From Methylomonas koyamae (GTDB lineage: Bacteria > Pseudomonadota > Gammaproteobacteria > Methylococcales > Methylomonadaceae): DNA of 64,000 bases. The first letter of the stretch is position 1. The number at the start of each line of letters is the position of its first letter. Positions 24,802 through 58,035 of this stretch are shown piece by piece. Under the pieces are notes generated by a model. That model was given only the letters and a program-made list of their open reading frames with translations. It ran no database searches and was not told where the DNA came from. The DNA is taken from the NCBI RefSeq assembly GCF_006483455.1, contig NZ_PPPU01000007.1, positions 1 to 64,000 on the forward strand, written 5' to 3'. The translations under genes were made by a program, and so were the position numbers.

Positions 24802-25736
24802 TGGCGCTGGGCGAATTCGACCTGATCCGGCGCTTCTTTGCCGGATCGGCGCTGCAACATCCGTTCAATCAACTCGGCATCGGCGACGATTGCGCCTTGC
24901 TGAATCTGCCGGACACCTACCAGATCGCCGTGACCGCCGACACCATGGTCGAAAAAGTGCATTTTTTTGCCGATGTCGATCCGAATGCCTTGGGGCACAA
25001 AGTCTTGGCGGTAAACCTCAGCGATTTGGCGGCGATGGGCGCGGAGCCGTTCGCGGTGACGCTGGCGTTGACCTTGCCGCAAGTCGACGAATCCTGGTTG
25101 CAAGCTTTTGCCGATGGTTTTCTGGCCCTGGCTCGGCAATGTCGGGTGGATCTGGTCGGTGGCGACACCACCTCCGGACCGCTGAGCTTGACGGTACAGG
25201 CCATGGGTGCAGTGCCGCTCGGCCAGGCCTTGTTGCGTTCCGGCGCCAGGCCCGGCGACTTGATTTTCGTCAGCGGCCCCATCGGCGATGCCGGCTTGGG
25301 ACTCAAGATCAAACAAGGTTTGCCGGTCTTCGATAACGAACAACCTTTGCAAAGGTTCGACCGGCCGCTACCGCGAATCGAGACCGGTCTGGCGTTGCGC
25401 GGCGTCGCCAGCGCCTGCATCGATATTTCCGACGGCTTGGCTGCCGACCTGGGCCATATTCTGCAGCAAAGCGGCGTCGGTGCGGTGCTCGATTGGGACA
25501 AACTGCCGTTGTCGACTGCGGTGGGCGAGTATATCGCAACCAGTTCGGATTGGACGTTGCCCTTGAGCGCTGGTGACGACTATGAACTGTGCTTCACGGT
25601 GCCGGCGCCATTGGCGGCAAAGGTACCGGCCGGTTGCCACTGCGTCGGCGTCGTCGAGGTCGAGTCCGGTTTACGCATCCGCCGGGCAGGGCGTATCGAA
25701 AACATTCCAGCCAGGGGTTATCAACACTTTGCTTAG
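24801..25736 (+). CDS. thiL: Thiamine-monophosphate kinase
   Basis: A 311-residue PurM-like ATP-dependent kinase that makes thiamine diphosphate from thiamine monophosphate. N-terminal GEFDLIRRFF, the metal/ATP site GIGDDCALL, TADTMVEKVHF, the AVNLSDLAAMGAEP block and VGGDTTSGPLSLTV are all present, as are DISDGLAADLGHI and SAGDDYELCFT in the second domain. It begins in a TGATG overlap with nusB and its end overlaps the probable pgpA start. Confidence 0.96.
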   Translation: MALGEFDLIRRFFAGSALQHPFNQLGIGDDCALLNLPDTYQIAVTADTMVEKVHFFADVDPNALGHKVLAVNLSDLAAMGAEPFAVTLALTLPQVDESWLQAFADGFLALARQCRVDLVGGDTTSGPLSLTVQAMGAVPLGQALLRSGARPGDLIFVSGPIGDAGLGLKIKQGLPVFDNEQPLQRFDRPLPRIETGLALRGVASACIDISDGLAADLGHILQQSGVGAVLDWDKLPLSTAVGEYIATSSDWTLPLSAGDDYELCFTVPAPLAAKVPAGCHCVGVVEVESGLRIRRAGRIENIPARGYQHFA

Positions 25737-26217
25737 AGAATATTACGGTAACAGCCGGTTAAGCCCCCGGCAAATCCTCAGCGACCCGGTGTTGTTTTTG
25801 GCGTTCGGTTTCGGCTCCGGCCTTTCCAAGTTCATGCCGGGCACGTTCGGTACTGCCGCCGCGATTCCGCTGTATCTGTTATTGGTCCAAACCGGCAGCG
25901 TCGTTTATAGCTTGGCGACGCTGGTAGCAATCGTCGCTGGAGTGGCGATTTGCCGCCGCGCCGCGGACAAACTGCAAGTACATGATTTCGGCGGCATCGT
26001 CTGGGACGAAATCGCCGGTTTCTTGGTGACCATGCTCGGTGTTGCTTTATCCTGGCAGAGTTTGTTGGCCGGATTCGTCCTGTTCAGGCTGTTGGATATC
26101 CTGAAACCTTGGCCGATCAAATGGTTCGATCGAAACGTCGACGGCGGTCTCGGTATCATGCTTGACGATATCGCCGCCGGCGCGATTGCCTGTCTGATTT
26201 TACATTACTGGTTTTAG
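25729..26217 (+). CDS. pgpA: Phosphatidylglycerophosphatase A
   Basis: A 162-residue inner-membrane phosphatase that converts phosphatidylglycerophosphate to phosphatidylglycerol. The family pattern FGFGSGLSKFMPGTFGTAAAIPL, DFGGIVWDEIAGFLV and FRLLDILKPWPI with the acidic active-site residues is clear, with about four membrane segments. There is no ATG near the expected N-terminus. The TTG at 25729 is preferred: it gives a length close to E. coli PgpA, overlaps thiL by eight bases and has AGGGG upstream at 25713. The frame is open far into thiL, which is a shadow. It ends the riboflavin/thiamine operon. Confidence 0.9.
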   Translation: MLREYYGNSRLSPRQILSDPVLFLAFGFGSGLSKFMPGTFGTAAAIPLYLLLVQTGSVVYSLATLVAIVAGVAICRRAADKLQVHDFGGIVWDEIAGFLVTMLGVALSWQSLLAGFVLFRLLDILKPWPIKWFDRNVDGGLGIMLDDIAAGAIACLILHYWF

Positions 26218-33280: not shown

Positions 33281-34156
33281 TTAATGTTTTACCCATGGCG
33301 GTATGAATTCGCTCCAGTATTGATCCTCGTTCTTTGCCAATCGCTTGATAATCGGTCTGAGAAATCTAATAACAGGATTCTGGATAATTGCCTGGTAATT
33401 TTTCTCGTACCAGCAGTATTTATTGATTATATCTGTTAGTTGTTTTTCGACATGCTTTTTACCACCATGTTGAATGATAACCATCGCACAATCTAAAAGC
33501 ATAAGTTTCTCAAAAGCTGTTGTTTTGGCATTAGGATGACTTAAAGCTTCAGAAAGAAGGCTGTCAGTGCTGATAAATTTAATTCCATTTTCCGCCATTC
33601 GCAACCATAAATCCAGATCCATCGCGATGTGGATAGATTCATCAATCGGACCAACCTGCTCCCAAGCCGCGCGAGAAAATGCACTAGACGGTTGCAAAAA
33701 ATTGCCGCCATTCATCCAGCTATATAGGCTATTCAGATCGATTGTTGGATTTGGTTCAATGTAATAAATTTCGTTGCCAGACAAATCAACAATTCTTCCT
33801 GAGCCAACGACCATTCCAATTTCCGGATTGTTCTGGAATGTCTTAGAGAAATATTCAAGAGTGCCAGGCAGGTACCAATCATCCGAATTTAGCCAAGTAA
33901 GTATGTCGCCGGTGGCTTTTGCCATGCCTTTGTTTATAGCATGGCTTTGACCTCTATCAGGCTCGCTAACCCAATACGCTAAATAGTGCTCGTATTTTTT
34001 TATGACCTCAATTGTGTTATCGGTACTTCCACCATCAATTATTATAAACTCCAGATTGTGATAATCTTGTGATATTACAGATTGTATAGTTTTCTCAATA
34101 AATTTACCTTGGTTAAAGGTGGGAGTTACTATCGTTATTCTTGGTGATTTATTCAT
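33281..34156 (-). CDS. Family 2 glycosyltransferase
   Basis: A 291-residue GT-A glycosyltransferase of the WcaA type: ITIVTPTFNQGKFIEKTIQSV at the start, FIIIDGGSTDNTIEVI, EPDRGQSHAINKGMAKATGDI and the DxD-like TWLNSDDWYLPG near residue 88. The MDLDLWLRMAE segment near residue 185 carries the probable catalytic acid. The whole gene is strongly AT-rich relative to core genes. It is followed, in transcription order, by three further transferase genes. Confidence 0.9.
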   Translation of the reverse strand: MNKSPRITIVTPTFNQGKFIEKTIQSVISQDYHNLEFIIIDGGSTDNTIEVIKKYEHYLAYWVSEPDRGQSHAINKGMAKATGDILTWLNSDDWYLPGTLEYFSKTFQNNPEIGMVVGSGRIVDLSGNEIYYIEPNPTIDLNSLYSWMNGGNFLQPSSAFSRAAWEQVGPIDESIHIAMDLDLWLRMAENGIKFISTDSLLSEALSHPNAKTTAFEKLMLLDCAMVIIQHGGKKHVEKQLTDIINKYCWYEKNYQAIIQNPVIRFLRPIIKRLAKNEDQYWSEFIPPWVKH

Positions 34157-34163
34157 TTTTTTA

Positions 34164-34826
34164 CTATTGAACCTTTGAAGCCTCTAAGTTAAGGCTAATT
34201 AGGTATTCTTTGTTATTAAACGATAGCTTCTTTGATGCCCAGTCTTCAAAATTATGAAATTGACTTTCATGCGGATTCCATTCCGTTATGTCTCCAAAAT
34301 TATGTGAAAATAATAGGTTACTTAAATATTTTTTGTTGTAGACTTCATGGTGAAAATTTTCTGGGTAATCTTGTCCGCCCATAAGAGAGGGCGATATGTA
34401 TTCTATTTGGTGATTTGTATCGTTATAAATGGCAATGATGTGATCCAAATCCGGTACGGATATTCTTAATTTTCCTTTGGGTTTTAATATGCGATGCATT
34501 TCTTTGAGGACTAATGATATATTTTTCCTAGGGACGTGCTCCAATACGTGGCACATGTAGATGAGATCGACAGTATTATCCGGAATCATCCATAGGCGGA
34601 AAATATTGCGAGTCACTATATGGACATGACGATATTTTCTAGCATCAATATTGATAAAGTCTGGGGCGTTTATCTCGCCGCAGCCAATGTGTAAAAGTAA
34701 TTCTCCGTCTTGCGTTCTCGGGTATTTCTTTTCTCTTGCAAGCCAGAGTGATTGTCGAGCGAAGTTGGCAATATTGTGAAATTTTGATCCAATTATATTT
34801 TTAAGTCTTTCGATTCGCCAATGCAT
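34164..34826 (-). CDS. Class I SAM-dependent methyltransferase
   Basis: A 220-residue methyltransferase with the SAM-binding motif I LLLHIGCGEINAPDFINID near residue 44, the post-motif region DLIYMCHVLEHVP near residue 87 and the LKPKGKLRISVPDLD block. Its place directly after wzt suggests that it modifies the exported glycan, perhaps capping the non-reducing end that Wzt reads, but sugar methylation in mid-chain is just as possible. It lies five bases after the wzt stop. The base composition is among the lowest in G+C of the window. Confidence 0.82.
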   Translation of the reverse strand: MHWRIERLKNIIGSKFHNIANFARQSLWLAREKKYPRTQDGELLLHIGCGEINAPDFINIDARKYRHVHIVTRNIFRLWMIPDNTVDLIYMCHVLEHVPRKNISLVLKEMHRILKPKGKLRISVPDLDHIIAIYNDTNHQIEYISPSLMGGQDYPENFHHEVYNKKYLSNLLFSHNFGDITEWNPHESQFHNFEDWASKKLSFNNKEYLISLNLEASKVQ

Positions 34827-34831
34827 TTTAT

Positions 34832-36073
34832 TTATTGTCCATTGTTGTCAAGAAATTTCCATTTTCCGTTTAAACTGATAAAACCTTCCGTCATGCTTTG
34901 AGTTCTTTCGATATTTGAGCTTTTAACTTGGAAGTTAATTACGCCTTCTTCATAGAAGATATTACGCGCTATTTTTCCGGCCTCAATGCCGATACGAATT
35001 GAAAAAACACCGGGCAATAGAGGAAAGGATGGTATTTCAATGGCCAATATATATTGACCTGGATACAGTATTTTGTTTTTAAATTGAGACTCGGTGATTT
35101 CTGTGGCAAGATAAAGAAAGTCTGTGGTATGAATTCCAAACCCGAAGTTTGGGTTTTCAAGTGTTTTGTTGACTTTAAAATTCAAACGAAATGTTATATT
35201 TTCATTGGTATAGATGCTTTCAATTTTTTCACCGCGATCGTTAATTATTTCAACGGCATTTAGTTCGATATCCCCAGAAAGCTCTTTTCGAGCTCTGCTT
35301 GATGAATGGTGGCTTTGCTCTTTTATTTTCTCGTCGTTTTGCGCATAAAAAAGGCCACATATTTCCGCCGGGTTTCCATCCGCGACAATTTTACCGTGAT
35401 CCATGAGGAGCACTCGCTTGCATATGCGTTCGATTTGTCGAATGTTGTGGCTGACAAGTAAAACTGTTTTTCCTTGATGAATTATCATGTCTTCCATCTT
35501 ATTGAAGCATTTCCGTTGAAACGCTAAGTCGCCGACTGCTAAAACTTCATCGATAATTAGAATATCCGCATCCAGACTGGTGGCGATGGAAAATCCCAGC
35601 TTTACGGTCATGCCGGAGCTGTATCGTTTTACAGGGGTGTCAATAAATTTTTCCAATTCGGAAAAATTAATGATTTCGTCCAATTTTTGTTGAATGACTT
35701 TTTTCGGAATACCCAAAATAGAACCATTCAGGAAAATATTTTCCCTGCCGGTTAATTCTGGATTTACGCCTGCGCCCACTTCGATAAGCGGGGCGATACT
35801 ACCTCTTACCACAACATTGCCCTTTGTAGGCTTGCTAATATTGGCGAGGTGTTTGAGTAGAGTGCTTTTTCCGGCGCCGTTGTGTCCGATAATGCCAACG
35901 ACTTCACCTTCATCAATAGCAAAGTTCACATTGTCGAGGGCTTTAAACCGCTCGCGACTAATTGTAGGCTGAAAACTTAGGCGTCGTATTGCGTTGACGG
36001 CAGTTTCTTTCAAACTGGTAAGGTGTCCGAGTTGATATTCTTTGGTCAGATGATTGACTTCTATAATGGCCAT
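34832..36073 (-). CDS. wzt: Polysaccharide ABC transporter ATPase with C-terminal glycan-binding-type domain
   Basis: A 413-residue ATPase of the Wzt/TagH type that powers export of a complete polysaccharide across the inner membrane together with the permease encoded next to it. Walker A is GHNGAGKST at residues 63-71, the signature YSSGM at 151-155 and Walker B ILIIDE at 171-176. From about residue 255 on a second domain, beta-rich and unlike an ATPase, is present; in Wzt proteins with this layout it binds the modified end of the O-polysaccharide before export. This suggests that a defined chain terminus is read here. Confidence 0.92.
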   Translation of the reverse strand: MAIIEVNHLTKEYQLGHLTSLKETAVNAIRRLSFQPTISRERFKALDNVNFAIDEGEVVGIIGHNGAGKSTLLKHLANISKPTKGNVVVRGSIAPLIEVGAGVNPELTGRENIFLNGSILGIPKKVIQQKLDEIINFSELEKFIDTPVKRYSSGMTVKLGFSIATSLDADILIIDEVLAVGDLAFQRKCFNKMEDMIIHQGKTVLLVSHNIRQIERICKRVLLMDHGKIVADGNPAEICGLFYAQNDEKIKEQSHHSSSRARKELSGDIELNAVEIINDRGEKIESIYTNENITFRLNFKVNKTLENPNFGFGIHTTDFLYLATEITESQFKNKILYPGQYILAIEIPSFPLLPGVFSIRIGIEAGKIARNIFYEEGVINFQVKSSNIERTQSMTEGFISLNGKWKFLDNNGQ

Positions 36074-51367: not shown

Positions 51368-53656
51368 TTATTGCTCACTGGGCTCGACTTTCTCGACCTC
51401 AGCTTCGAAAGGTTTTTCGAAATAAATGCCTGACAACTTGCGTTTGAATTCTTGCGTAATATCTTGTGCGTCCTGGCGGCTTTTCATGACTCTAGGAGTA
51501 AGCAGTACCACCAGTTCTGTTTTGTCGTTATTTCTTAACGTGCCTCCGAATAGTGGGCCAATCAACGGTAGCTCGTGAAAAAAAGGGACTCCATCACGTG
51601 AATAGTTGTTTTTATCTTTGATAAGCCCGCCTAGAACAATTGTTTCACCGCTCTGAATTGCAACGCTACTTTCAATTTCTCTTTTCTGAATAGTTGGAGA
51701 ATCGATGTTTTTGCTCGTGGTTGTTTCCGTGGCTTCATTAACACTTTGTAAAATATCCATTAGTACTAATCCGCTGGAATTAACCCTTGGCCTCACTGAA
51801 AGGTTGACTCCAGTATCGATCATCTGAATTGAGCTGGTCTGAATCGGGGTGCTATTGGCTCCGCCAGCTGTTAAATTGGTGGAAACTGAAGAGCGAATCG
51901 GTACCGAATCCCCGACTTTTATTGATGCTTCCTGATTGTTCAACACCATCAATGAAGGGGAAGAAATAACATTAATGTTTCCTTTTGTGGCGCTAGCGCT
52001 CAGTACCGCGTTAATATCTTTAGAATTGCTTGAAAAGGCATAAGAAAAACCTCCCGTGGCTACTCCCTCAGCTGCATCTTTTGCTAATTGTGTTAGATTC
52101 AGCCCGTTGTCGGCTCCTCCAGTTATTACATTGGTTCCACCGTTATCGTGACTGAAATACCATTGGAGGCCGTACTTCAGGTGATCGTTGAGAGTTACCT
52201 CCACAATTGTCGCATCAATCATCACCTGCAACGGCAACACGTCCAGTTGCTTCAACACACGCTGAATCACGGCATATTCCTGCGCCGTAGCGACGATAAT
52301 CAACGCGTTATTGCCTTCGTCGGCCAGGATTTTGACGTTGGGCATATCGTTATTGTTGCCGCCGCCACTGCCGCTGCCGCCGCTCAAACTGCCGCCGAGT
52401 GCGCCGGAGCTGCGGTTGGCGGAACGGTCGGTGCGGTCGCTCAAGGTTCGTTCGCTGGCGGAATCCTGTTGCCGGTTAGTGCCGGTGCTGCCGCCCATGC
52501 TGCTGGTGCTGGACGAGGTACCGCTGGAGCTTTTGTTGGTCGCCGACAGGGATTTGCGGCCCGAAGCGATCGAGGCTTTGCTGCTGCGTTGCACGCCGCT
52601 ACCGAAAATGCCGCTCAAGGTGTCGGCCAGATCGCCGGCGCTGACGTGCTGGCAACGGTAGACGTTGACGCCGCCGGCCGCAGCCGGATTGATCCGGTCC
52701 AGCCGCAACACCCAGTTTTCAATGTCTTTCAGGTAATTGGCTTGATGAGTGATAGCCAATACCGCGTTCAGGCGTTCGATTTCGATGAAACGGAAGAAAC
52801 TGGCTTCTTCGTCCTTGGCTTTTTTGTTGTTAAAAATCTGTTCCAGTTCTTCGATAATCTTGCCGGCGCTGACATTGGCCGGGGTGAATAATGCAAAGGA
52901 GCGGCCTTTCATGATATCGATATCGAAAGTATTGACCACTTCCATGGCACGGGCGACTTCGTTACCGGAACCGGCCACCAATAAAATATTGCGGCTCGGG
53001 TCGACATGCAGAACCGACTTTTCCGGCATCAGCGGCTTCAGGATCTCGGACAGCTCGGTCGCGGCCACGTTTTTCACCGGGATGATGCGTACCTGATAGC
53101 CGTTCGGCATCTTGGCGCTGGTCAGCGAGTTGATCGAACTGCTGTACAAGGCCTCGTTGGCCGGTTTGATCAGATACATTCCGCCTTGCTCGGTCAACGC
53201 GGCGTTATTCAAACCCAGCAGCATGTCCAGAGTCGGCAGCAGCTCGTCCTTGGTCAGCGGCTTCGAGGTTTGCAGAGTGACCTTGCCGGTGACTTGCGGG
53301 CTGATCGTGTAATTGCGGCCCATGATGTCGCTCAGGATCACCTTGGCGACTTCGCCGAGGTCGGCATCGTCGAAATTCAGGCTGTATTCGCCTTTGGTGC
53401 CGGATTTGGCGGCGGTACTGGGCGTATTGTGGGCGGTAATGCTGGCTTCACCGTTCGGGAACAATTCGACTTTGGTGGTCCGGTTCTCGGCCGATTTATC
53501 CGCATTCGCCAGTTCCGGAATGGGCTGGTCGTCGCCGATCCGCTGGTTGTCGGCAATCGGCAATTTTTGGTGCAACTGCGGGCCGATATACTCGCAGCCG
53601 GCCATGGACAGCGCCAACACCAACATCGGGGGAACGCCAATTTTGTTAGTTGTCAT
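51368..53656 (-). CDS. gspD: Type II secretion secretin GspD
   Basis: A 762-residue outer-membrane secretin. The ATG at 53656 is preferred to two upstream ATGs because it starts a lipoprotein signal (MTTNKIG then LALSMAGC) and overlaps gspC by 11 bases. The N0-N3 domains follow: SLNFDDADLGEVAKVI, the ISPQVTGKVTLQT segment, GYQVRIIPVKNVAATELSEIL and IERLNAVLAITHQANYL. A long Ser/Gly-rich insert, near residues 365-445, precedes NVKILADEGNNALIIVATAQEY. The secretin domain contains VMIDATIVEVTLNDHLKYG and the conserved VPLLGxxF-like ELPLIGPLFGG near the end. The 3' third of the gene is clearly AT-richer. Confidence 0.93.
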   Translation of the reverse strand: MTTNKIGVPPMLVLALSMAGCEYIGPQLHQKLPIADNQRIGDDQPIPELANADKSAENRTTKVELFPNGEASITAHNTPSTAAKSGTKGEYSLNFDDADLGEVAKVILSDIMGRNYTISPQVTGKVTLQTSKPLTKDELLPTLDMLLGLNNAALTEQGGMYLIKPANEALYSSSINSLTSAKMPNGYQVRIIPVKNVAATELSEILKPLMPEKSVLHVDPSRNILLVAGSGNEVARAMEVVNTFDIDIMKGRSFALFTPANVSAGKIIEELEQIFNNKKAKDEEASFFRFIEIERLNAVLAITHQANYLKDIENWVLRLDRINPAAAGGVNVYRCQHVSAGDLADTLSGIFGSGVQRSSKASIASGRKSLSATNKSSSGTSSSTSSMGGSTGTNRQQDSASERTLSDRTDRSANRSSGALGGSLSGGSGSGGGNNNDMPNVKILADEGNNALIIVATAQEYAVIQRVLKQLDVLPLQVMIDATIVEVTLNDHLKYGLQWYFSHDNGGTNVITGGADNGLNLTQLAKDAAEGVATGGFSYAFSSNSKDINAVLSASATKGNINVISSPSLMVLNNQEASIKVGDSVPIRSSVSTNLTAGGANSTPIQTSSIQMIDTGVNLSVRPRVNSSGLVLMDILQSVNEATETTTSKNIDSPTIQKREIESSVAIQSGETIVLGGLIKDKNNYSRDGVPFFHELPLIGPLFGGTLRNNDKTELVVLLTPRVMKSRQDAQDITQEFKRKLSGIYFEKPFEAEVEKVEPSEQ

Positions 53657-54257
53657 TGAGTGTCTCGGGTATTTCATTGGGTGCTTGTTCAATCGGTCTG
53701 GCATTGACGTTGGCCGGCGCCGGGGGCCGGGGCGCGGGTTTACCGGGCGGCGGTTTGATTTGTGCTCGCGGTTTGCGCAACATGACCGGCTTGTCCTGGC
53801 CGGCTTGTTGCAGGATGACCCGGTCGGCCAGAATCTGTTTCAATTGCCAGCCGGATATACTTTGTTCTTCGCCGATCTTCAGGAATTTCCGCGCTTCGTT
53901 ACGCTTGCTGAACAGCGCGGTCGGTTTGCCGCCCTTATCGTAAATACCGATCAGCGACCAGTCGTCGATCTGGCTGGTGTCGCTGTTCTGCATGGGGTCG
54001 TTGGCTTTGGTTTCGACCAGCGGCCGGCGCCCCTCGATAAAAATCGGCCGCTCGACGATATCGTTGTAACTGTCGATAGGGCGCGGGGCATCAGCGATAG
54101 CGGGTAGTTGTTCGGCCTCGAATCCGATTTGGTCTCGGGCCGCCAGCTGGCCGTCGAGTTCCTGCGCCGCATAACGGCTGACAAGCCACTCGCCGCCGAG
54201 GCCGGTGCCGAGTGCGGCGCAAGTCAGCAATTGCAAGCGTAACAACTTACGATTCAT
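53646..54257 (-). CDS. gspC: Type II secretion protein GspC-like
   Basis: A 203-residue inner-membrane protein with a short cytoplasmic start, one membrane segment (residues 9-27) and a periplasmic homology region (RPIFIEGRRPL, WSLIGIYDKGGKPTALF, WQLKQILADRVILQQ) that docks to the secretin. The C-terminal 40 residues are Pro/Lys/Ala-rich and there is no PDZ domain, which is shorter than Pseudomonas or Vibrio GspC. It overlaps gspM by four bases and gspD by 11. Confidence 0.85.
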   Translation of the reverse strand: MNRKLLRLQLLTCAALGTGLGGEWLVSRYAAQELDGQLAARDQIGFEAEQLPAIADAPRPIDSYNDIVERPIFIEGRRPLVETKANDPMQNSDTSQIDDWSLIGIYDKGGKPTALFSKRNEARKFLKIGEEQSISGWQLKQILADRVILQQAGQDKPVMLRKPRAQIKPPPGKPAPRPPAPANVNARPIEQAPNEIPETLNDN

Positions 54258-54832
54258 GACGCCTTGGCCCGCATAAAGCTGACGACTTGAAAGCTGACAT
54301 TCAATTGCGAGCTCGGCTCCAGCTTGTTATTGCTGCGGTTGCGCGCGCCGCGTACCGGCGAAATGTCCAGCTGGTCGACCAATAACAGCGGGACGTTGGT
54401 TTCCAACGCGTATAACACGGCGCGTAAGGCCTCCATGCTGCAGCTCATGCGGACTTTGACCAGGATCCGCATGAAACCGTCTTCAGTTTTGCCAGGTAAT
54501 CCCTGAGTGCTGGTCAATTGGCCGCCGGCGTCGGTTACGGCAGTTTTGATGATGTTTTGCAATTCCGCCGATGCCAGCGATTCGGTATCGCTATCGCTCA
54601 AATAGCCTTGCTGTTGAAACTGTTGATGCAGAAAATCCAGGTTTTGAGCCACGCTGTCGCGGCGGGCAGCAATGGTTTGCTGGCGTTGCAGGCGGAATAA
54701 CAAGGTTTCCTTCTGCTCCCGGTAATCCAGCCAGGTGTTGAACAGCGGCAACAGGGCGGCCAACACCACAACCAGCACCACTGCAGCCAACAGGCCCAAC
54801 GCCAGCCAACGCTGATAGCGGGCTTCATTCAT
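54254..54832 (-). CDS. gspM: Type II secretion protein GspM-like
   Basis: A 192-residue protein with a single membrane helix (residues 10-32, WLALGLLAAVVLVVVLAALL) followed by a coiled-coil stretch and a ferredoxin-like periplasmic domain, with FMRILVKVRMSCSMEALRAVLYALE near residue 120. Such proteins pair with GspL in the inner-membrane platform. The start is the ATG at 54832, overlapping gspL by eight bases; a longer frame upstream is a shadow of gspL. Confidence 0.85.
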   Translation of the reverse strand: MNEARYQRWLALGLLAAVVLVVVLAALLPLFNTWLDYREQKETLLFRLQRQQTIAARRDSVAQNLDFLHQQFQQQGYLSDSDTESLASAELQNIIKTAVTDAGGQLTSTQGLPGKTEDGFMRILVKVRMSCSMEALRAVLYALETNVPLLLVDQLDISPVRGARNRSNNKLEPSSQLNVSFQVVSFMRAKAS

Positions 54833-55988
54833 GCTGTGGCTCCTCGGAGTTGTCGCCCTCCGCGGCGGCGGGCGTTTCCGCGTCTGCTGCCGTGTCTTCC
54901 GGCTTCGGCACGGCGACATCCATGCTGATTTGAAACCGTTCGCGGCCGGTTGCCTTGTCTTGCGTCAACGGCGAGACAAAACTGACGTTACTGAAGTAGG
55001 GCGAGGCTTCCAGTACCCCGATCAGCGACGATGCGGCCGGCGACTGGCCTTGTATTTGTAAACGTTTTTCGGCGTATTGGTAGTGGGTTAACCACGTATC
55101 GTCTTTTAACAAGACGCTGAGTTCGTTTAAAACCGCAACGAGCGATGGCGAATCGGATTTAATGCCGATCAGACGTTGGGTCTGCTCGCGGAGCGCGTCT
55201 ATTTCGCTTTGCTGGGCTTCGATCAGAGTGGTTTCTTTCTCCAATGTCTTCAGTTGGCGTTTCAAGGTATCGACGGCTTCGCCTTCCTGCCAGACCGGCC
55301 AAGCCAAGGCGGCGACCAGCAACAGGAGTAACAAGGCATTCAGGCTCCAATGTACCGTGCGCACCCAGTTATTTGGCCGGGGCCGGTATTGTTCCGGCAA
55401 CAAGGTGTAACGCGGGACGTTAGCGGGATAAACCGTCGCCGCCGGACTGAAATCGACTGCGGCCGGTTGTACGCCAAGCGCCTGCAGCCGGGCCAGGCAA
55501 TCGTCCAGCAGCGGTTTCGGTGTTAACACCAACAACACTTCGATTTGGCCGAATTCGGTTTTGCCTAGCACGTTGGCGGCAAAATAAACCTGCTCGGTGC
55601 TGAACGGGGTGTAGCGGTCCAGTTCGAAGCCGACGACTTGTTGCAGATTTTCTTGGGCGGCGGCAGGCAGAAACAATCGTTTTTGCAAGGCTTGGCCCGG
55701 GTTTAACCGCAGCAGGCACTCGGCCTTGTCCAGTTCGGGATTCAGATTTTTCAGGTTCCGGTACGCGTCCGCGGCATTGGAATCGAGTTGCCAGATTACG
55801 GTGTTTTCGCTTGCAGTTTCCCGATGAAAATCGATTCGGAAATTGCTGTGGTCGGGGCTGAAGATGGCGACGCCGCTGCGGTCGCTGAGCAGCCGTTTCA
55901 GGCCGGTCGGCAGCAGAGCAGCCAGCTCTCCGCTCCACCATTGCCAAAACCGCTTCAGATCGACGTCGTTAGTTGTTAGTAAGCTCAT
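54825..55988 (-). CDS. gspL: Type II secretion protein GspL-like
   Basis: A 387-residue inner-membrane protein. The cytoplasmic N-terminal part, to about residue 200, has an actin-like (PilM/GspL) fold with FELDRYTPFSTEQVYFAA and LGVQPAAVDF; it normally binds the GspE ATPase. One membrane helix lies near residue 220 (SLNALLLLLLVAALAWPVW), followed by a coiled-coil and a PilN-like periplasmic domain, then an acidic Ala/Glu-rich tail. It overlaps gspK by 20 bases and gspM by eight. Confidence 0.87.
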   Translation of the reverse strand: MSLLTTNDVDLKRFWQWWSGELAALLPTGLKRLLSDRSGVAIFSPDHSNFRIDFHRETASENTVIWQLDSNAADAYRNLKNLNPELDKAECLLRLNPGQALQKRLFLPAAAQENLQQVVGFELDRYTPFSTEQVYFAANVLGKTEFGQIEVLLVLTPKPLLDDCLARLQALGVQPAAVDFSPAATVYPANVPRYTLLPEQYRPRPNNWVRTVHWSLNALLLLLLVAALAWPVWQEGEAVDTLKRQLKTLEKETTLIEAQQSEIDALREQTQRLIGIKSDSPSLVAVLNELSVLLKDDTWLTHYQYAEKRLQIQGQSPAASSLIGVLEASPYFSNVSFVSPLTQDKATGRERFQISMDVAVPKPEDTAADAETPAAAEGDNSEEPQHE

Positions 55989-56937
55989 CTTGCACAGTGA
56001 TTAACTGGGGTTCCTTTTCCGGGTCGAATAACGACGATTCTTGTCGACCCTGCTGCCAATCCAGGATGCGGTAGGGCGCTTGTCCGATATCTTGGTTTTC
56101 AAACTTCACCACGGCCGTAATCGACGCGGTTGACTGGTCCGCCAGCAGTGTTTCGCAGCTAATGGTAAAGGTTTGTTCCTGATCCGCCAAGCCGGCCTCG
56201 GTTTGATTGCCGTCCGGCGCGTTATCGCCGGTTTGTTTGGCCAGACGTCGCTCCAAGTATACATCATGAATATTTTGTGTCTTCAGCCGGGCATCGATGA
56301 TGCGCAGCAACTCGGGCGGCGCCAGGCTTTTGTTCGGCTCGGGCTGACCGGAATAGACCGTGATCCAGGGCCGGATCCGTTCGAATATGGCTTCGTCCAT
56401 GCCCAGTACCATTTGCAACTCTTCCAGCGATTGAAAGGGGGCATTGCCCGGAGGGTATGATCTGCCCGCCTGGCGGTAGTGTTTCTTTTCGGCGCCGTTC
56501 GGCCGCGGTTCGTCGTCGGCGTCGCGCCAATCGATGATCGCATCCATCAGTTGTTGCCGCCGGTTATCATCTTCGACGGCATAGGACAGTACCGCCAGCA
56601 GTAATTCTTCGCCGGCTGCATTGATATCGACCTTGCCCGATTCGGCCAAAACCCGAATTCGCAGTTCGCTATCGGCGCCAGCCAACCGGTAAATCGCGCC
56701 GTCGACCCGCCAGCGTTGTTCCGGATCGGGTTGACGCAGGCCCTGTGCGGCCAAATTCAAACCGGATTCCGCCAGCGCCGAGGCGCGGGCGTTGCCGACC
56801 ATAGCCGAACTAACGCCGCTTTCCCGCCGCATGGTCAGCGTAAAACTGCCCGCCATCACGCTGAGCAGCGTCAAAATCCAAATGACGATCACCAGCGCCA
56901 TTCCGGTTTGGCGTGGCCGGGACGGATTACTCGGCAT
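55969..56937 (-). CDS. gspK: Type II secretion minor pseudopilin GspK
   Basis: A 322-residue large minor pseudopilin that caps the tip of the pseudopilus with GspI and GspJ. The prepilin-like N-terminus is RQTGMALVIVIWILTLLSVMA; as usual for GspK it lacks the Glu at position 5 of the mature form. The SAM-like helical region DINAAGEELLLAVLSY and the later FQSLEELQMVLGMDEAIFERI and PWITVYSG segments are typical. It overlaps gspJ by 11 bases. Confidence 0.92.
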   Translation of the reverse strand: MPSNPSRPRQTGMALVIVIWILTLLSVMAGSFTLTMRRESGVSSAMVGNARASALAESGLNLAAQGLRQPDPEQRWRVDGAIYRLAGADSELRIRVLAESGKVDINAAGEELLLAVLSYAVEDDNRRQQLMDAIIDWRDADDEPRPNGAEKKHYRQAGRSYPPGNAPFQSLEELQMVLGMDEAIFERIRPWITVYSGQPEPNKSLAPPELLRIIDARLKTQNIHDVYLERRLAKQTGDNAPDGNQTEAGLADQEQTFTISCETLLADQSTASITAVVKFENQDIGQAPYRILDWQQGRQESSLFDPEKEPQLITVQDELTNN

Positions 56938-57622
56938 CGGGGGGCAGCGAGGTTTGCTGGCCGATGTTATCGCCGGCCGGGGCGGCGGCGTCGATCCGCA
57001 GCGGAAAGATCATATCCGGCCAAAAGCTGTCGTCATTGAGCGCAATATGGATTTTGACCAGGCTCGGTAAACTTTCGGCGTCCAGCCAGTCGTCCTGCCA
57101 GACCGGAGCGTCGCCAGCGTTCGGACTCTTGGCGCCGAAGTAACTGATGCGGAAGCTGCGGACGTCCTCCAGCAACACCACCGGCTCCGGCTCGGCATCC
57201 ACTTGCCGCCGGTAGGGAGTCAAGGTGACGTTCAATGTAGACGTCCGATCGCGGGCCGGTTCGATGCTGAAGATTTGCAGACCTTTACGCGCCGAAGCGG
57301 CCGGCAGCGCGGCAACGAAGCGCAAGCTTTGCGGCAGGCCCTGAAAACTAAGTTTGGGCAGTTCCGGCTCGGGGGTGGCTTGAAGGTCGTCGCGCTCGGC
57401 AGCGACGAACTCAGGCAACGGCCGGGCCGCACTCAAATGGTGTTTGAAAAATTGGTAGACCACGGCTTTACGGTTGACTTGGTCGATTTTGGTTTCGCCG
57501 CTATGCCAACTCTGCGCCGCAATCCGCAAACTGGCGAACAGCAAGGTCACCATCACGCCGAGCAGCGTGATCGCGATCAGCATTTCGATCAAGGTAAAGC
57601 CGTTAGATTGGCGGGGAAACAC
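56927..57622 (-). CDS. gspJ: Type II secretion minor pseudopilin GspJ
   Basis: A 231-residue minor pseudopilin. The cleavage motif NGFTLIEMLIAITLLGVMVTLL is at residues 7-28, preceded by a six-residue leader, and includes the Glu5 needed for assembly. The region RIAAQSWHSGETK matches the GspJ helix. Extra sequence beyond the core is rich in Pro and Asp. Start at 57622 shares one base with the gspI stop. Confidence 0.9.
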   Translation of the reverse strand: MFPRQSNGFTLIEMLIAITLLGVMVTLLFASLRIAAQSWHSGETKIDQVNRKAVVYQFFKHHLSAARPLPEFVAAERDDLQATPEPELPKLSFQGLPQSLRFVAALPAASARKGLQIFSIEPARDRTSTLNVTLTPYRRQVDAEPEPVVLLEDVRSFRISYFGAKSPNAGDAPVWQDDWLDAESLPSLVKIHIALNDDSFWPDMIFPLRIDAAAPAGDNIGQQTSLPPDAE

Positions 57623-58035
57623 TATCCCTGGCCTTGCTGCAGTTTTAATGTTGTCAATTCCACGCTACGGCGCTGGTCGCCGTCCCCCCAACTGACACCA
57701 ACCTGCACCGAATAAAGTTGTGCGGCGGTTTCGCTGTTCGGATCGGGCTCGCGCAGACTGCGCCTGGCCGGCTGATTCGAGGCCGGCGCCACTCGGACCA
57801 GCCAGTCGTATTTGTCGCCTTCGCTGCCCTCGCTGTCCCCGACCGTGAGCGGGGTTTCCACGCCGGTCCGCGCCATCAACGATTCGGCGATCTGCACGGC
57901 TATAGTGTATTCCTCGGATATGACGGCATTGTTAACGCCGGCGCCGAATACCCGCAGCAATACGCTCAATGCAATCGCCATGATCGAAAACGCCACCAGG
58001 ATTTCCAGCAGCGAAAAGCCTTTATGCTGCCGCAT
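57622..58035 (-). CDS. gspI: Type II secretion minor pseudopilin GspI
   Basis: A 137-residue minor pseudopilin that starts the tip complex. Short leader MRQHKG, then FSLLEILVAFSIMAIALSVLLRV with Glu5, and the family pattern AVQIAESLMARTGVETPLTVGD. It overlaps gspH by 14 bases and gspJ by one. Confidence 0.9.
   Translation of the reverse strand: MRQHKGFSLLEILVAFSIMAIALSVLLRVFGAGVNNAVISEEYTIAVQIAESLMARTGVETPLTVGDSEGSEGDKYDWLVRVAPASNQPARRSLREPDPNSETAAQLYSVQVGVSWGDGDQRRSVELTTLKLQQGQG

Follow-up and report, generated by a model that had tools for sequence, protein, structure and literature searches.

Sequence comparisons point to repeated homologous replacement of the secretin module of GspD in Methylomonas

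The DNA considered here, 64,000 nucleotides of a Methylomonas koyamae contig (positions 1 to 64,000 of NZ_PPPU01000007.1, assembly GCF_006483455.1; hereafter the window), encodes on its minus strand GspD (51368..53704, 778 amino acids), the secretin of a type II secretion system (T2SS). Comparison with related genomes shows, at the level of sequence, repeated homologous replacement of the secretin module of this gene, in the window strain and in others. The explanation which, taken whole, we hold to be very likely is that the secretin end was replaced by homologous recombination, that such replacement is recurrent, and that diversifying selection would act on the pore. A preliminary description of the same DNA had proposed that the outer-membrane part of GspD was swapped by recombination while the periplasmic domains stayed native; the near-identical flanks, the identity of 70-76% inside the block and the conflicting trees bear this proposal out.

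The most direct evidence comes from G061, a one-contig genome classed as the same species as the window strain (G000, a draft assembly of 89 contigs). Over 18.6 kb the two are 97.2% identical overall, and 250-base steps range from 0.96 to 1.00 with gspD as the one exception: there, three consecutive steps drop to 0.72-0.76, bordered by steps of 0.90 and 0.94; behind the gene the values are back to 0.98-0.99. Single differences place the block between 52223 (amino acid 494) and 51377 (amino acid 776), so that it begins with the secretin domain and runs into the last codons; 32 bases inside it (51462-51493) are identical in both genomes, and the best two-breakpoint segment spans amino acids 493-775 (mismatch 0.261 inside, 0.017 outside). 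The native part, as delimited by the difference list and the trees, comprises the N-terminus and the N0-N3 domains (amino acids 1-493, 52226..53704, minus strand) and is 97% identical in DNA to G061 over amino acids 30-490 (DNA 0.971, protein 0.993, fourfold-site difference 0.09). The replaced block, from the secretin domain to the gene end (amino acids 494-776, 51377..52223, minus strand), is 70-76% identical to G061, against about 98% outside: for amino acids 495-600 the protein identity is 0.764, the DNA identity 0.704 and the fourfold-site difference 0.75, and for amino acids 601-770 the corresponding values are 0.847, 0.757 and 0.68. Identity profiles of the flanks were made for Methylomonas pairs only (14 pairs, covering the 7 kb ahead of the gspD start and the 9 kb behind it wherever sequence extended that far); for G000/G061 the background median was 0.987 and the secretin mean 0.736, and none of the 99 background windows was that low.

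The direction of the exchange can be read from G012 and G002, two genomes of sister species. With both of them the G061 block shares 82-90% DNA identity, close to the level of the N part (about 0.90), whereas the block of the window strain is only 70-77% identical to G061, G012 and G002 alike; since the former fits the sister species and the latter is an outlier to all three, the window strain is the recipient of the swapped block. Its branch measures 0.39-0.47 in the secretin trees, next to the G061/G012/G002 clade, as opposed to 0.013-0.014 in the N trees. The long branch beside that clade makes it probable that the donor was an unsampled relative, diverged and with a lower G+C content at third codon positions (GC3). 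In a protein search of 311 genomes of the order, the best other match reached 83% amino acid identity; a protein pattern scan returned eight loci, seven in Methylomonas and a distant one (26%) in a Bdellovibrionales metagenome-assembled genome. A donor on a virus or plasmid was rejected, as one scan of viral contigs confirmed no relative and all plasmid matches were below 60% identity. Also rejected was gene conversion with a paralogue of the window strain itself as source, the other matches to the Secretin family being PilQ (31% identical) and one of 27.6 bits.

The mosaic had originally been noticed from composition, with 23 G+C counted in positions 51661-51720 and 43 in positions 52621-52680, and both counts are exact. 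In 300-base windows, the G+C fraction lies at 0.42-0.44 in 51400-52149 and at 0.50-0.64 in all the remainder of gspD, with 0.47 for the edge (52000-52299). Third positions are G or C in 369 of the 493 codons of amino acids 1-493 and in 119 of the 285 codons of amino acids 494-778 (odds ratio 4.2, Fisher p 7e-20), while the G+C at positions 1 and 2 is nearly constant (0.47 in amino acids 30-370, 0.45 in amino acids 496-755), so that the break is one of synonymous sites, and amino acid composition was rejected as the cause of the AT-rich end. The break had been put near the start of the secretin domain, rightly, and at 52140-52200, which the comparison with G061 moves to 52223; the other edge, by the same comparison, is the 3' end of gspD at 51377. 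No Rfam element was matched at the break, or elsewhere in the window, at gathering scores. An AT-rich end shared by relatives had been named as a sign that it is an old feature of the gene. A milder GC3 drop is indeed present in the nearest relatives (from 0.75 to 0.51/0.54 in G061, from 0.74 to 0.47/0.57 in G012 and from 0.77 to 0.54/0.59 in G002), but the sequence itself has been replaced in the window strain. Because of this milder drop, composition alone is weak evidence and could reflect an old feature; the strong evidence for the swap is the identity profile.

Separate phylogenies of the two parts, which had been suggested as a check, were built from 24 of the 30 Methylomonas gspD genes, and they differ, contrary to the single shared tree that would have spoken against a swap. 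By the approximately unbiased (AU) test, the secretin tree is rejected when set against the N alignment (p 2e-70), as is the N tree when set against the secretin alignment (p 9e-7). With the secretin part as data, G000 and G061 as sisters were rejected by the AU (0.016) and Kishino-Hasegawa (KH, 0.021) tests, and G031 and G011 as sisters by both the AU (6e-5) and Shimodaira-Hasegawa (SH, 0.043) tests. Trees of the whole gspD gene thus mix two histories.

What the preliminary description missed was the recurrence of the event in other lineages. In the flank profiles, the secretin part falls from a background of 0.987 to 0.650 in G005/G034 (one of 99 background windows lower), from 0.950 to 0.732 in G028/G006 (2 of 61), from 0.977 to 0.838 in G031/G011 (1 of 99) and from 0.787 to 0.657 in G008/G016 (1 of 52). 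It is slightly lower in G012/G002 (0.893 to 0.823, 10 of 95) and hardly so in G061/G012 (0.840 to 0.820, 35 of 97), and there is no dip in G035/G025 (0.983, 0.988), G035/G023 (0.947, 0.931), G006/G024 (0.902, 0.893) and G014/G008 (0.863, 0.868). The edges of the divergent blocks vary. G005/G034 differ from amino acid 357 to past the stop codon and G031/G011 over amino acids 463-644; for G028/G006 the block opens at amino acid 485, after which the identity recovers to 0.92-0.98 before dipping again behind the gene. When the single strongest divergent segment was taken from each of 13 pairs, it covered secretin-domain sequence in five and a Ser/Gly-rich insert of the N part in a sixth (G014/G008), and lay elsewhere in seven. 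We regard these profiles as showing that the secretin module was exchanged independently in other Methylomonas lineages. Three further pairs (G004/G033, G061/G002 and G016/G026) are clearly more similar in the secretin part than in the background, a pattern that exchange or mere constraint may explain; G004 and G033 are AT-rich Methylomonas genomes, with secretin parts 0.85 alike and surroundings 0.73. G005 has, on its second contig (about 147-149 kb), another GspD-like frame, a distant one with 38% identity.

For the rest of the order, gspD regions were taken from 80 further genomes of other genera, 71 of which yielded the gene; the other nine, in which the motif used detected no reading frame, were excluded. 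Each genome was used once, giving 24 non-overlapping pairs whose N parts share a DNA identity of at least 85%. In 19 of these pairs the secretin part exceeds the N part in fourfold-site divergence, with means of 0.41 and 0.23, respectively (Wilcoxon p 4.5e-5), and other limits on N identity gave 29 of 36 pairs at 80% (p 6e-7), 13 of 17 at 90% (p 7e-4) and 4 of 6 at 95% (p 0.08). An excess of at least 0.2 occurs in nine of the 24 pairs, five of them Methylomonas, and in none of the 24 when the two halves of the N part are compared as an internal control. Judged by fourfold-site divergence only, the same exchange thus probably took place in other Methylococcales. The secretin part is lower in 86-92% of sampled pairs at N identities of at least 0.6; at long range (N identity 0.35-0.50) its mean amino acid identity is 0.485 and that of the N part 0.464. 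A generally fast-evolving secretin domain was therefore rejected, as it is no faster than the N part at long range.

PilQ, the secretin of the type IV pilus (identified by TIGR02515, 489 bits against a cut-off of 284), served as a control. It was matched in 26 of 28 genomes; 24 loci were used, 10 of which the motif missed, and seven of 11 planned pairs were compared. The secretin part of PilQ shows no dip in G000/G061 (0.996 DNA identity), G011/G031 (0.993) and G028/G006 (0.984), and is within 0.015 of the N part in the three pairs that remain beside the four clearest ones. Three of these four Methylomonas pairs thus combine a flat PilQ with a swap specific to GspD.

The contig to which the window belongs (162.7 kb) offers a view of the genome around gspD. 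Of its 1,625 windows of 300 bases, 1,444 align to G061, with a median identity of 0.983, and values below 0.80 occur at five places: gspD (seven windows), thiL/pgpA, a Wzt gene next to a methyltransferase gene that does not align, and the two edges of an unaligned stretch at about 132-133 kb. The block at 25500-26200 (down to 0.76 at 25.6-26.0 kb) covers the 3' end of thiL and pgpA and looks like an imported segment in housekeeping genes. Another, at 33900-35500, includes the start of a glycosyltransferase gene, a methyltransferase gene and the 3' part of a Wzt-type ABC exporter gene, with an unaligned stretch at 34145-34851 and the low Wzt windows at 34.8-35.3 kb; owing to the divergence of this Wzt/methyltransferase region, the export and modification end of the O-antigen differs within the species. 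Outside the window, positions 83959-89490 and 131930-133475 of the contig have no aligned counterpart in the compared G061 region. Divergent blocks are therefore no rarity in the species, and the striking point is their recurrence at one domain.

Within the protein, alignment indicates that amino acid change concentrates in two loops, one of them the outward apical loop. In 13 pairs, the identity is 0.38-0.81 in the apical region, 0.66-0.98 in the rest of the secretin domain and 0.89-1.00 in the N part; the pairs were chosen as differing and share some genomes, so these values are a description and not a test. The apical region is below the rest of the domain in 12 of the 13 pairs and, to two decimals, equal to it at 0.81 in G143/G137, and it is the least conserved part of the block in the comparison with G061 (0.65). 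The second variable loop (amino acids 604-622, 51839..51895, minus strand) is 0.89 identical to G061 and spans 0.05-1.00 over the 13 pairs. It probably lies at the central gate; in that case the channel side would take up part of the change, favouring an explanation by substrates as much as one by an outside agent. The predicted structure of amino acids 435-770 is of low confidence (mean pLDDT 60.7), and the loop positions rest on alignment and published descriptions. The apical region itself (amino acids 518-566, boundaries approximate; 52007..52153, minus strand) follows the QW motif directly in the alignment; in the relevant part of PMC10550240 it is described as highly variable in length and composition, with an optional top gate there, above the membrane, that accompanies apical regions of at least 80 residues. 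That of the window strain counts about 50 amino acids (from QW to an AVL stretch, the right boundary being approximate) and so, in contrast to top-gated (Vibrio-type) secretins, stays under 80.

The product of gspD is assigned as a T2SS secretin by a TIGR02517 equivalog match over the cut-off (525 bits against 351) and the adjoining gsp genes; Pfam matches are to Secretin, Secretin_N (two stretches) and GspD N0, and the best-matching solved chains by sequence are those of T2SS secretins (E down to 8e-51). It resembles the GspD/EpsD/XcpD(Q) secretins in its full-length equivalog match, its N0 and Secretin domains and its best solved relatives, and differs from them in the recent import of its secretin module and in a Ser/Gly-rich insert of about 82 residues within N3 (amino acids 371-452, 52349..52594, minus strand). 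The preliminary description had correctly placed this insert just upstream of the break; it lies about 125 bases away, in the span of the best Secretin_N match (amino acids 347-492), and outside the replaced block in the window strain, and in the pair G005/G034 it is part of the differing block. Its length varies among relatives, with 60-103 codons in Methylomonas. On the 5' side of gspD and on the same strand lie a GspC-like gene (53646..54257; weak GspC matches below cut-off, 0.98-1.00 identical to G061), gspM of the XpsM type (54254..54919; NF040576 over cut-off), a PilM-like gene that would be GspL by its position (54825..55988; weak PilM-family matches below cut-off), a gspK-like minor pseudopilin gene (55969..56937; NF037980, below cut-off), and gspJ- and gspI-like minor pseudopilin genes (56927..58035; matches below cut-off). 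All of them are unswapped, and only GspM exceeds its model cut-off as a T2SS protein.

The mechanism that we propose would begin with uptake of foreign DNA by transformation. A ComEC-family gene is present in the window strain, and the family also matches in 10 of 14 control genomes; a literature search of titles and abstract openings brought nothing evidently relevant on competence in Methylomonas. Exchange anchored in conserved stretches on either side would then allow a homologous segment of a diverged, unsampled lineage of lower GC3 to replace the 3' part of gspD, that is the secretin domain and the C-terminal tail. The native N0-N3 domains would still dock to the inner-membrane machine, and the pore could alter its outer face and gates with its fit to the machine kept, while selection would retain the imported alleles. 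The surplus of successful swaps would be best explained by diversifying selection on the pore, and the independent swapping of the same half in several close relatives suggests that an outside agent, perhaps phages, selects new versions. Tentatively, and with more doubt than confidence, we extend this to the whole of the Methylococcales, where the secretin module would be a shuffled, hypervariable surface trait, exchanged as whole domains or as their first part and driven by phages with GspD as their receptor, with the docking domains and, largely, PilQ fixed.

What selection, if any, has favoured can be read in several ways. Phages or bacteriocins with the secretin as their receptor would be the likeliest agents, phage being the external agent with the best support. 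It is possible, though short of probable, that the tail fibre of a phage, or a bacteriocin, binds the exposed apical ring of GspD, and that an imported allele escapes it with secretion kept. The low conservation of the apical region in 12 of the 13 pairs, the flat PilQ in three of the four clearest pairs and the strong divergence between G000 and G061 of another surface trait, the O-antigen region, are consistent with such escape; the thiL/pgpA block, likewise strongly divergent and not encoding surface proteins, and the second loop, which is probably inside the channel and less conserved than the apical region in seven of the 13 pairs, are explained worse by an outside agent. Precedents exist, as Vibrio cholerae phage VP2 was reported to adsorb via EpsD, with its fibre gp20 pulling down a construct of EpsD residues 340-675 (passages of PMC8101328), and Ralstonia phage phiAP1 to require a working T2SS for infection, although it still adsorbed to two T2SS-defective mutants (passages of PMC9765573). 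Rather unlikely, in our estimate, is that the swap fits the gates of the pore to a changed set of secreted proteins. The variability of the second loop, if it is at the central gate, would agree with this adaptation, yet the GspC-like and pseudopilin genes keep an identity of 97-100% with their G061 counterparts, and the top gate did not determine system specificity according to the part of PMC10550240 concerned with it.

A hot spot at which recombination is frequent by virtue of DNA sequence or uptake, with no selection on the protein, would draw on the commonness of recombination, evident from the strongly divergent places that the 145 kb compared contain besides gspD, and from those close to gspD in G028/G006; it is unlikely, as the edges in the window strain follow the domain, G000/G061 and G005/G034 show no other dip between 6 kb ahead of the gene start and 8 kb behind it, and the change concentrates in two loops. 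The assembly of G000 in 89 contigs might raise suspicion of an assembly or contamination artefact, which we consider very improbable given a frame open through gspD and the like pattern in G031 (five contigs) compared with the one-contig G011, and in G005 (two contigs). Fast evolution of the secretin end in place, without import, could appeal to the variation of this domain among species, but it has next to no chance of being right: a fourfold divergence of 0.68-0.75 beside 0.09 in the adjacent part, within one species and with abrupt edges, already refutes it for G000/G061, and the domain is no faster at long range (0.485 against 0.464).

Several observations nevertheless weigh against recurrent replacement under diversifying selection. 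The SH test does not reject G000 and G061 as sisters on the secretin part (0.55), and the secretin alignment is compatible with G005 and G034 (AU 0.50) and with G028 and G006 (AU 0.38) as sisters, so that the case for the three pairs is carried mainly by the identity profile. G028/G006 has dips outside gspD too, behind the gene and at -5.4 kb, and PilQ of G005/G034 drops as well, from 0.975 to 0.914. Fifteen of the 24 pairs have no excess of fourfold divergence of at least 0.2, and five have none at all. No DNA match to the block exceeded 75% in the 101 other gspD genes compared, or 74% in the 36 other genomes of the genus, of which 32 matched. No GspD-binding Methylomonas phage emerged from a literature search of titles and abstract openings. 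Moreover, there was no sign of a swap in E. coli K-12-type gspD, in searches blind below about 85% identity and with records unpaired: its N part matched in 3,120 of 5,426 genomes, 3,117 of the 3,120 records being at least 95% identical, and its secretin part gave 3,115 matches, all of at least 95%. These near-equal counts leave room for few swaps; the E. coli K-12 T2SS is annotated as cryptic.

Mosaic genes, such as those of penicillin-binding proteins and neisserial porins, arise when diverged blocks of DNA are spliced into a native gene; those are other proteins under other selection, and gspD shares with mosaic genes the abrupt change of identity within the gene and the conflicting trees, while a donor was not found. 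Closer in kind are the outer-membrane hot spots of Legionella pneumophila (fadL-like, TolC-like and others), with repeated homologous import that includes exposed outer-membrane proteins, for which escape from protozoan predation was proposed; FadL was also noted to be a phage receptor in E. coli (passages of PMC5507463). The unit exchanged here is instead one domain of a secretion-machine pore, and the words 'secretin' and 'type II' are absent from the main text of that source. The EpsD/VP2 case, from a different bacterium, shows a phage fibre to be capable of binding a T2SS secretin by its C-terminal part, and the passages of PMC8101328 concerned report no allele diversity. Transfer of top-gated secretins between two clades was ruled out from gene and genome G+C in a section of PMC10550240, outside which modules within a genus fall, and in the passage of PMC8594841 at issue a gspD mutant is merely named among strains. 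Among the matches listed for the open literature, no title or abstract opening reports shuffling of T2SS secretin domains. Hot spots at outer-membrane proteins are already known, and shuffling of the T2SS secretin domain appears to be new.

T2SS secretins are usually treated as conserved parts of a machine. The replacement of a domain within one species, amid an otherwise unchanged machine, points to selection on the pore, and the secretin domain is apparently an exchangeable module. The swap makes possible a direct test of whether secretin alleles set phage susceptibility in methanotrophs.

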